A stretch of DNA of 22,805 nt from a virus: positions 1-22,805 of IMG/VR virus record IMGVR_UViG_3300010151_000188. One strand, written 5' to 3'. The notes below the pieces were generated by a model, which saw nothing but the letters and a program-made list of their open reading frames with translations, searched no databases and had not been told where the DNA came from. This document shows, piece by piece, positions 7,919-9,965 of this stretch. The translations under genes and the position numbers were made by a program. Position 1 is the stretch's first letter. Every line of letters begins with the position of its first letter.

Positions 7919-8181
7919 AAATTAACTACAAAGATATATCAATTACATTTAAGTTTAGGCTTGAAGAGTTAGAGAATATGATTGAAGTATACACTAGACA
8001 GCCAAAGAAATGCGAACTTGAAGATGGAATAAGACAAGACTTAAGAAACATAAGAATGAAAGTAGAAGAAAAAATTATTTTAGAAAAACAAGCAGCAGAA
8101 CAAAGGCCAACTGAAGATATGAGAGAAGCTTCAGCTAACCCTACATCTGTTGAACACATAAAGGAGACAACTAATGAGTGA
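7915..8181 (+). CDS. Hypothetical protein, 88 aa (GTG start)
   Basis: The GTG at 7915 overlaps the previous TGA as GTGA, so coupled initiation is likely. The product begins MKINYKDISITFKFRLEELE. It has a long helical middle (about residues 14-65) and a polar, Pro/Ala/Thr-containing tail. The ATG of the SSB-like gene lies eight bases before its end, preceded by AAAGGAG. No domain is recognised. Proximity to the SSB-like gene hints at a DNA-metabolism role. Confidence 0.5.
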   Translation: MKINYKDISITFKFRLEELENMIEVYTRQPKKCELEDGIRQDLRNIRMKVEEKIILEKQAAEQRPTEDMREASANPTSVEHIKETTNE

Positions 8182-8452
8182 CTTTGTACCAAAACCAAAT
8201 ACAGCAAACCTATTTCATAATGACGTAGGTGACAACCCAAAGAGACCTAATTGGAAAACAATAGGGACAGTAACTTTCAACGGAGTTGAAGGATATGTTT
8301 CAGGTTGGAGTAAGAAAGCAAGCAATGGAAATGATTTTATATCTATTGTTTTTGAAGATAAGGAAACTTACGAATCTAAAAGAGGTGGAGCAAGACCTCA
8401 ACCTAAAGAAGCTACACCATCAACAGTAAAGGATAGCGATATACCTTTTTAA
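8174..8452 (+). CDS. SSB-like protein with DSDIPF tip, 92 aa
   Basis: The 92-residue protein ends in KDSDIPF, the acidic/hydrophobic tip by which bacterial SSB proteins (D-D-D-I-P-F) recruit replication and repair partners. Residues about 27-62 form a likely small beta domain (WKTIGTVTFNGVEGYVSGWS), followed by a proline-containing linker (70-85). It is shorter than a bacterial SSB (about 110-180 residues), so the fold may be reduced or different. Its position close to ERF and other DNA genes supports single-strand DNA binding. The tip is seen; the OB fold is inferred. AAAGGAG precedes the ATG. Confidence 0.6.
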   Translation: MSDFVPKPNTANLFHNDVGDNPKRPNWKTIGTVTFNGVEGYVSGWSKKASNGNDFISIVFEDKETYESKRGGARPQPKEATPSTVKDSDIPF

Positions 8453-8454
8453 CC

Positions 8455-8518
8455 TTTAGGCTGGGAAAACTGAATATTTTCCATATATTAATATACAAGT
8501 TAAACAACCTAGCCTAAA
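8455..8518 (+). ncRNA. Structured element D1 upstream of the methyltransferase
   Basis: TTTAGGCTGGG (8455-8465) pairs with CCTAGCCTAAA (8508-8518) over 11 bp with one G-U. The 42-base loop is AT-rich. It begins right after the SSB-like stop at 8452. It may act in the 3' end of that mRNA, but no T-tract follows it. Confidence 0.45.
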
Positions 8519-8528
8519 AACATTACCA

Positions 8529-8589
8529 AGCTGTCAGATTTTTTGATTGAGATTATATCAGTTAGTTTTTTCCTTTTGGTCTGACAGCT
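8529..8589 (+). ncRNA. Structured element D2: perfect 10-bp inverted repeat
   Basis: AGCTGTCAGA (8529-8538) and TCTGACAGCT (8580-8589) are perfect complements separated by 41 AT-rich bases. A T-run lies inside the loop rather than after the stem, so this is not an ordinary terminator. It could be an RNA hairpin, a protein-binding palindrome or an origin element. Confidence 0.45.
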
Positions 8590-8595
8590 ACACTT

Positions 8596-8699
8596 TGGGG
8601 TAACAGTATATATTAACATTTAAAAATTAAAGGAGTATACCTTACCTTTGTTAGAGATTGTTAAACATATACTTGGAGGTTGGCAAACCAGTTACCCCA
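8596..8699 (+). ncRNA. Structured element D3: nested stems before the methyltransferase
   Basis: TGGGGTAAC (8596-8604) pairs with GTTACCCCA (8691-8699). Just inside, AGTATAT (8605-8611) pairs with ATATACT (8667-8673), and TTAACA (8613-8618) with TGTTAA (8659-8664). A side hairpin is GGTT-GGCA-AACC (8678-8689). AAAGG (8629-8633) can pair with CCTTT (8645-8649). This nested order strongly suggests a folded RNA leader ending 18 bases before the methyltransferase ATG. A TTG-started 26-residue frame (8648-8728) also overlaps it, so coding origin is a competing reading. Confidence 0.45.
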
Positions 8700-8717
8700 C
8701 AAAAAACAAGGAATATA

Positions 8718-9413
8718 ATGATAAATAAAATACATAACGAAGATTGTTTAAAAACGATGAGCAGAATGCCAGATAATTATATTGATGTTATAATTACTTC
8801 CCCACCTTACAATCTTGGTAAATATCATCATACTGGCAACAAAAACACAAACTCGTATTCTGACAATATGAACGAAGAAGAATATCAAGATTGGCAACTA
8901 CAAGTATTAAATGAATGTTATAGAGTTTTAAAAAAAGATGGATATATGTTTTACAATCATAAAAATAGAATAAAAAATGGAACTCAAATAACTCCATACT
9001 CTTGGATATTAAAATCGTTATTTAATATAAAGCAAGAAATTATATGGATTAATCGTAGTCAAAACTTTGATAAAATACGATTTTATCCTTGGACAGAAAG
9101 AATATACTGGCTTACCAAAAATCCAAAAACAAAAATTTTTAATTCATTAAATAAACCTGATTATTTTGACTGGAAAGAATGGAAACCTGTGGGTACTAAA
9201 GGAAGTCATAAAAGAGCTTTTCCAGTAAAAATGGTAGAGGATTTATTAAGCGTTTGCTTGAATGCCAAGATAGTTTACGACCCTTTTATGGGTAGTGGAA
9301 CTACAGCACTTGCCTGTATAAATTTAGGAAAACAATATATCGGAAGCGAGATTGAAAAAGAATATGTTGATTTATCAAGAAAAAATATAGAGAACAAGAG
9401 TATTGCGATATAG
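8718..9413 (+). CDS. DNA methyltransferase (N6-adenine/N4-cytosine, TSPPY type)
   Basis: From the ATG at 8718 (AAGGAA upstream) this encodes 231 residues. HNEDCLKTMSRMPDN (6-20) precedes the catalytic TSPPYNLG (27-34), and the AdoMet-binding FMGSGTTA (190-197) comes near the C-terminus. Catalytic motif first and AdoMet motif last gives the beta-type order of PF01555. The substrate could be adenine N6 or cytosine N4. No restriction enzyme is adjacent, so protection of phage DNA from host restriction, or a regulatory use, is likely. A longer start at 8658 runs through the folded leader and is rejected. Downstream bases hold what looks like a second methyltransferase tail. Confidence 0.85.
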   Translation: MINKIHNEDCLKTMSRMPDNYIDVIITSPPYNLGKYHHTGNKNTNSYSDNMNEEEYQDWQLQVLNECYRVLKKDGYMFYNHKNRIKNGTQITPYSWILKSLFNIKQEIIWINRSQNFDKIRFYPWTERIYWLTKNPKTKIFNSLNKPDYFDWKEWKPVGTKGSHKRAFPVKMVEDLLSVCLNAKIVYDPFMGSGTTALACINLGKQYIGSEIEKEYVDLSRKNIENKSIAI

Positions 9414-9460: not shown

Positions 9461-9651
9461 AAAATAACGATAAGATATTATGTATGATTAAACAGCGACT
9501 AGATGTTGGTGCTGCAAAGTATGGCGAACAAGTGCCGATTGATGGAAGTAGGGACAATCTTAAAGAAAGTATAGAGGAATTGTTAGACCTATGTGTCTAC
9601 TTGTCCGCTGTTGCCCTGGAATTGCATGAAAAATACAAAAATGCCGAATGA
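9457..9651 (+). CDS. Small MazG-like protein (TTG start), 64 aa
   Basis: AAGGAG at 9444-9449, seven bases before a TTG at 9457, marks the start; a longer TTG start at 9403 lacks such a site. The 64-residue product contains DVGAAKYGEQ (16-25), RDNLKESIEELLDLCVYLSA (32-51) and a final helix. KYG, then RDNL, then an E-rich helix followed by D, is the pattern of small phage all-alpha NTP pyrophosphohydrolase-like (MazG/DUF1599-type) proteins, which hydrolyse nucleotides. Only half of a full ExxE/ExxD site is clear, so activity is uncertain. It overlaps the methyltransferase remnant by four bases. Confidence 0.55.
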   Translation: MKNNDKILCMIKQRLDVGAAKYGEQVPIDGSRDNLKESIEELLDLCVYLSAVALELHEKYKNAE

Positions 9652-9758
9652 CGCATTATCTTGTAGTTTCAGGGCATTCAGTATAATTAGTGGATAGTTA
9701 TATCCAATAGAAAAAGTTATGGCCGTATAGGCCTATCCTCGTAAGGAAAATTTTTAAA
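9652..9758 (+). other. Intergenic region with short hairpins
   Basis: This gap holds TGGATA-GTTA-TATCCA (9691-9706), a perfect 6-bp hairpin, and TCCT-CGTA-AGGA (9736-9747) followed by AAAATTTTT. AAGGA in the second hairpin is also the probable ribosome binding site of the next gene, so folding could regulate its translation. No tRNA was found. Confidence 0.35.
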
Positions 9759-9965
9759 ATGTTTGAAAAATGTCCCAAGATTAATAGAATGTGTAGCTTC
9801 TGCTCTAAAAGCAGGTATAATAAAGATACAGGTAAATGGGATGGGAAAGAAAGATTATATTGCGGTGCTGCTAACACTACTGCACCAGTAAATCAGCTAC
9901 CAGATTGTTGGAAATATATGAGCAACAGTCAAAAGAAGAAGTTTAAACTAATGCGAAAGTTTTAG
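9759..9965 (+). CDS. Cysteine-rich hypothetical protein, 68 aa
   Basis: The 68-residue protein has cysteines at 5, 12, 15, 35 and 50, including MCSFC, which fit a small zinc-binding fold. It ends in a basic tail, KKKFKLMRKF. AAGGA upstream is partly in a hairpin. The stop TAG (9963-9965) overlaps the stop of the converging late operon. It is the last rightward gene and marks the end of the early block. Function is unknown. Confidence 0.55.
   Translation: MFEKCPKINRMCSFCSKSRYNKDTGKWDGKERLYCGAANTTAPVNQLPDCWKYMSNSQKKKFKLMRKF

Follow-up and report, generated by a model that had tools for sequence, protein, structure and literature searches.

The question raised by this locus was why three stems follow one another between a gene for an SSB-like protein and one for a DNA methyltransferase, and whether they act as RNA or as DNA. 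The window (the whole stretch of DNA analysed, 22,805 bases) is an entire IMG/VR record, is classed as linear, and is probably a fragment of a phage genome; the source phage is uncultured and aquatic, with close relatives in metagenomes only. Early small genes, including those for an exonuclease-like protein, ERF and the SSB-like protein, occupy the + strand from 1 to about 9,960, and the remainder carries large proteins on the - strand, two of which were checked for family without a match. A tRNA search of the window found none. The features considered are as follows.

8174..8452, + strand: SSB-like gene (PHROG SSB matches, E 8e-5), its stop codon directly 5' of element 1
8455..8518, + strand: element 1, closed stem-loop RNA with an 11-bp stem (fold z -3.8; stem kept in relatives)
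8529..8589, + strand: element 2, closed stem-loop RNA with a 10-12-bp stem (fold z -4.35; covariation)
8596..8699, + strand: element 3, member of a new RNA family with P1, a P2 arm and a P3 hairpin (match to covariance model R1; fold z -3.5; covariation)
8596..8604, + strand: P1 5' arm of element 3, UGGGGUAAC
8605..8673, + strand: P2 arm of element 3 (helices 8605-8611/8667-8673 and 8613-8618/8659-8664)
8678..8689, + strand: P3 side hairpin of element 3, GGUU-GGCA-AACC, with UGGC at 8681-8684
8691..8699, + strand: P1 3' arm of element 3, GUUACCCCA, complementary to 8596-8604
8718..9413, + strand: N4/N6 DNA methyltransferase gene (Pfam N6_N4_Mtase, E 1e-37)

All three stems described in the original prediction were found in place. 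The arms of element 1 (8455-8465 with 8508-8518) form 11 pairs, one of them G.U; those of element 2 (8529-8538 with 8580-8589) form 10 perfect pairs, which two further U.G pairs extend to 12, and UUCCUUU lies in the loop 5' of the 3' arm. Element 3 has helices of 9 bp (P1), 7 bp and 6 bp (both in P2). The minimum-energy fold of 8450-8720 contained the stems of all three elements and had an energy of -67.6 kcal/mol, compared with -47.6 kcal/mol (sd 4.6) for dinucleotide shuffles: z -4.31, with the + strand fold better than 200 of 200 shuffles. The - strand of the same region folded less well (z -2.7). Such complementary arms had been called unexpected in AT-rich DNA, and the joint fold (z -4.3) confirmed that they are improbable by chance. 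The stems were also said to lack a T-tract, and an intrinsic terminator (a GC stem and then a T run) was found behind none of the three.

Using the SSB-like protein as a query, twelve related loci were obtained with the same series after its stop codon: elements 2 and 3 in all, and element 1 in some. The SSB-like gene was conserved in L001-L010 and L050, and the next gene varied. The methyltransferase gene, which has its own Shine-Dalgarno-like AAGGA, occupies this site in the window record only. The description of the stems as lying before a methyltransferase consequently held for that record and failed for the relatives, in which the elements again follow the SSB-like gene and other genes come next. 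The stem of element 1 was preserved with altered sequence in L001, L002 and L005; at the corresponding position, L008 has it as AUUAAGGUGAG/CUCACCUUAAU. The stem was absent from L006, L007 and L010. Among 11 sequences of element 2, double changes (counts of which are inflated by relatedness, here and below) were found at 9 of 12 pairs, and the covariation score was 0.495, against 0.271 in shuffles, none of 500 being as high. Pairing of UUCCUUU in element 2 with AAAGGA in element 3, possible in the window, was rejected: both are constant, and L010 and L051 lack a partner.

Element 3 belongs to a family whose common plan is a closing stem (P1), a long P2 arm and a short P3 hairpin, in which UGGC was invariant among 29 aligned sequences. 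The tip of P2 is usually a T-arm-like hairpin, GCAGG-UAWCCAAY-CCUGY. Most other copies have a longer core than the window, UGGCAUUU-AAGGAGUGUCGCAGGUAACCAAUCCUGUC-UACCUUU-AAUGC, followed by AAAUACGGUUGGCUACUGG, inside P1. The window copy retains P1, P2 and P3, its P2 tip being shortened and mostly lost; AAAGGA (8629-8634) and CCTTT (8645-8649) are a remnant of the family core. The conserved tip was absent from the window, L001-L005 and L008-L010, and therefore cannot be required in every phage. Two candidate roles for conserved letters were discarded: a contact between the tip loop CCAA and the P3 loop UUGG is possible, shows no covariation and is impossible in tip-less members; and a leader peptide beginning at AAGGARUG is contradicted by unconserved frames and by the window, L001, L204 and L225, where the triplet is no start codon.

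The sequence of P1 differed wholly between groups: GGGGUAAC, GGGCUAAC, AGGGCAAC, UUUGGGAUA and CUGGAGUAGAU, each with its own complement; UCCCUUCCC, UUCCCUUCUC, UUGGCCUAC, UUACAGCUCUC and UUUGCCCUACU, likewise unrelated and opposite their own complements; and, identified by eye, GAGGUGAAUA (L187) and GACGGACAGA (L184), each faced by its complement. Ten to twelve unrelated P1 sequences, every one complementary to its own partner, are not explained by relatedness. In an alignment of 16 full-length sequences (A3), the nine P1 pairs were formed in every sequence (100%), with double changes at seven of the nine and a covariation score of 0.177, compared with 0.103 (sd 0.008) in shuffles; none of 500 shuffles was as high. 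In a second alignment of 37 sequences (A5), made to the covariance model, there were 197 double-change cells against 60, and a score of 0.320 against 0.118; this signal vanished when the 3' partners were slid. The outer pairs of P3 co-varied in both alignments. When the arms of ten P1 sequences were swapped, a sequence's own arms were 100% paired and those of other groups 46%. Since A5 was fitted to the model, A3 and the arm swap constitute the cleaner evidence. Compensatory change, which had been proposed as the mark of an RNA, was thus strong in viral-metagenome homologues for A3, A5 and element 2, and the retention of pairs in element 3 while the sequence changes indicates that it works as RNA.

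The strand on which the elements act was addressed by a helix search that weighed A.C and G.U alike in elements 1, 2 and P1 on the + strand (for L148 and L163, P1 was taken as the inner stem GGGCAAC/GUUGCCC, here and in the start-distance analysis below). G.U was found 15 times and A.C once (binomial 0.0003, some of the sequences being related), whereas no preference for G.U over A.C is expected of a DNA hairpin. The elements were in sense orientation to the adjoining genes wherever a gene abutted. No reading frame was open throughout all 18 members (a longer P1 span being taken for L148 only), and a conserved protein frame through the region, which would have spoken against the original prediction, was likewise absent from these 18. 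Wobble asymmetry, sense orientation and the lack of a conserved frame together indicate that the elements most likely function in the sense transcript. The elements are conserved structures of + strand RNA rather than DNA sites, and their function very probably lies at the RNA level.

A DNA element beside the SSB and ERF genes, that is, a replication origin, a cruciform or a recombination site, is accordingly very improbable, in spite of some features in its favor: element 3 recurs in ERF or SSB operons, is usually present in one copy and adjoins a variable gene region. The absence of preference between G.T and A.C and the conserved arm sequence characteristic of a cruciform or recombination site were not found, P1 arms lacking the conservation expected of a recombinase site; the - strand fold was less stable; and L187 has two copies. 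Of the roles originally offered, an origin with cruciforms is therefore unlikely in view of the wobble asymmetry, the two copies in L187 and the differing junctions, while a structured leader or small RNA gained support from the compensatory changes, the sense-strand G.U pairs and the lack of a shared frame.

Two DNA patterns derived from element 3 revealed many further copies, and covariance model R1, built without the window sequence, matched the window at 8591-8704 (35.9 bits, E 3e-5) and also recovered the short versions in L001-L010. Across 38 whole related virus records, R1 gave one confident copy in each, with an additional weak hit in one of them (E 0.28); in L187, a second candidate (E 0.03) had a fully paired P1 (UAUAUUCCCUUCUC). 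The carriers differ in packaging and tail genes: G006 has a phrog_38 terminase, and G036 a phrog_2 terminase and a tape-measure protein. A search of Rfam 15 gave no family near its gathering score for the elements, the only matches being tRNAs and an unrelated motif elsewhere in L188/L191; microRNA-like matches at permissive thresholds were dismissed as chance. ARAGORN found neither the anticodon of a tRNA nor the tag of a tmRNA in element 3 loci. Matches of the region to INPHARED by blastn were rejected as methyltransferase coding sequence or chance, as was a single hit of the core pattern in GTDB, in bacterial coding DNA (L176), so that no prophage copy is known. The element 3 family is new, is not in Rfam and reappears at gene junctions in many different phages; its covariation is strong, its carriers include phages whose terminases and tail genes are unrelated, and blastn of 50,697 phage records detected none of it.

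Which genes adjoin element 3 bears on the suggestion that the stems are operators (or a riboswitch) of the methyltransferase. Upstream were two SSB-like kinds and other small genes, with a C5 methyltransferase in L185; downstream were N4/N6 and C5 methyltransferases, MazG-like and sigma- or HTH-like proteins and several small unknown proteins, some of these neighbor names being assigned by sequence rather than by family search. In a fair share of the phages (L054, L149, L152, L161, L163 and L166), methyltransferases of several families came downstream, directly or one gene off, and it is this frequency that speaks for such control. On the other hand, they do not form one family, many members precede other genes, and 37 of 38 loci with the methyltransferase family of the window lacked element 3; the homologous downstream genes expected of a riboswitch or gene-specific leader were not found. 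Control of the methyltransferase is thus largely refuted and hardly credible. Element 3 is usually present once per phage record, is portable between junctions and is tied to no single downstream gene. Because the gene junctions change, it is not the switch of one gene, which argues for an RNA function of a general kind during infection.

We tentatively prefer the reading that the elements are stable noncoding RNAs of general use. On this view, the early mRNA from the + strand carries three RNA domains in a row, each shut by its own terminal stem, after the SSB-like gene and ahead of a next gene that varies; element 3 is one member of a structured phage RNA family found at many gene junctions. 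The closed domains may stay folded within the early transcript or be excised from it, and may then act on a general target, the likely contact points being UGGC in the P3 loop and the T-arm-like tip of those members that are full-length. The function of such stable phage RNAs becomes testable with a family whose invariant positions are defined and whose natural variants are many.

Spacing between the genes tells in part against this reading. Element 3 was mostly squeezed tightly between two genes and rarely stood alone; in most members, the upstream stop codon was at the first closed domain or no more than about 10 nt from it. The distance from P1 to the start codon was bimodal among 37 element 3 loci, 6-9 nt or 14-21 nt: the former class had no Shine-Dalgarno except where the P1 3' arm was purine-rich (L149, L187), and the latter had one. 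The two preferred distances hint at a cis role in translation, and the tight packing, together with the missing tip in the members listed above, likewise opposes a stable RNA. The main rival, which we regard as possible and somewhat doubtful, is a generic cis-acting intercistronic leader, whatever gene follows, whose folds would bring the upstream stop and the next start together or gate ribosome access. The nearby stop codon, the spacing classes after P1 and promoter-like sites upstream of element 3 in L184 and L169 are consistent with it. However, short distances are expected from compact phage genomes alone, many copies precede genes with their own Shine-Dalgarno, and the number of promoter-like sites was near that expected in shuffles. 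Moreover, no start codon closely follows element 3 in L169. There it lies within about 700 nt of noncoding DNA, downstream of both a terminator and a promoter-like site, and more closed structured domains come after it (z -6.8); this long noncoding setting speaks for the stable RNA reading. A noncoding array of about 600 nt was also noted at L180:2700-3270 (- strand; G035), with the promoter-like TTGACA-17-TAAACT, hairpins, a terminator and element 3, after which come a closed multibranched RNA of 190 nt and then another (z -6.8).

In T7, RNase III sites, which are hairpins between early genes, split the early mRNA. The elements are likewise hairpins between early phage genes, and could be processing punctuation, with either RNase III or RNase P cleaving the stems or the T-arm-like hairpin. 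Tandem closed stems between genes without a terminator, and the resemblance of the tip to a T-arm, fit this proposal, which we nevertheless consider improbable: at 9-13 bp the stems are short for RNase III, a cut would require neither the core nor the conserved single-stranded UGGC, and the tip is missing in the window. Element 3 differs from the T7 sites in that its fold is branched, single-stranded positions are conserved and its P1 sequences are unrelated.

Returning to stable noncoding RNAs, the closest known, and loosely comparable, are T4 rnaC and rnaD (species 1 and 2 RNA), adjacent noncoding RNAs of the phage, about 120-140 nt long and transcribed as an array. They resemble the elements in size and adjacency, rnaC has a T-arm hairpin at its end, a further point of resemblance, and element 3 shares with them a terminal stem closing an RNA of 100-140 nt. 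However, the T-loop of T4 rnaC is canonical; T4 rnaC/rnaD lie in a tRNA cluster, and element 3 between protein genes in loci with no tRNA; and there is no sequence similarity, P1, P2 and P3 with UGGC being those of element 3. On account of location and loops, element 3 was not classed as a member. To our knowledge, the T4 stable RNAs have been without known function for decades. The phi29 packaging pRNA has a terminal stem and a three-way junction with a long and a short arm, and full-length element 3 resembles it in arm loops with complementary AACC/GGUU-like letters. The Rfam pRNA model did not match element 3, in which, unlike phi29, the complementary loops are not found in all members, the tip loop is often absent, and the carriers have ordinary large terminases. 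GOLLD and ROOL are ornate phage-associated structured noncoding RNAs whose function is not settled (PMC12286853). They are several times larger than element 3, and no Rfam match to either was obtained in the loci searched.

The tip hairpin GCAGG-UAWCCAAY-CCUGY also occurred at 44 other distinct places, at 26 of which a long closing stem adjoined it with its 3' strand, exceeding the 95% level set by shifted controls; the junction in these 26 was nearly always gapless, as in a T-arm on an acceptor stem. At L191:6665-6803 and in L188, L216, L226, L245, L249 and L248, tRNA-like RNAs were noted that combine an acceptor-like stem with the T-arm loop UAWCCAAY. Several start with a TGGCGGAATTAGACGC-like sequence, which resembles a leucine tRNA D-arm minus its GG, and tRNA genes adjoin in L191, L188 and L245; neither ARAGORN nor Rfam called the RNAs of the L191 type. 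The hairpin GCAGGTAACCAACCCTGC was seen just 3' of a replicase ORF at L202:3989-4006 and in L199, L207, L213, L218, L220 and L227, small contigs with the appearance of ssRNA phages. The shared tip hairpin is a lead, not proof of kinship between element 3 and the tRNA-like RNAs. That the tip is a portable tRNA-mimicking module of many unrelated phages, binding one common host factor, is unlikely; if true, the factor would be one of translation or tRNA metabolism, perhaps in counter-defence, and the module would be set in element 3 of early operons, in tRNA-like RNAs near phage tRNA genes, which have an acceptor-like stem and a D-arm-like TGGCGGAATTAGACGC start, and in the 3' region of ssRNA phages.

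Two further structures were observed downstream in the window. A long hairpin, TGCCCTGGAATTGCATGA..TCTTGTAGTTTCAGGGCA, spans the end of a MazG-like ORF at 9612-9676, and its counterpart in L010 has the stem GCCCTAGA..TCTAGGGC, which looks compensatory. At 9693-9757, immediately 5' of the ATG at 9759, GGATAGTTATATCC..GGCCGTATAGGCCTATCCTCGTAAGGA is conserved, the stretch being present too in L001, L002, L003, L006 and L069.
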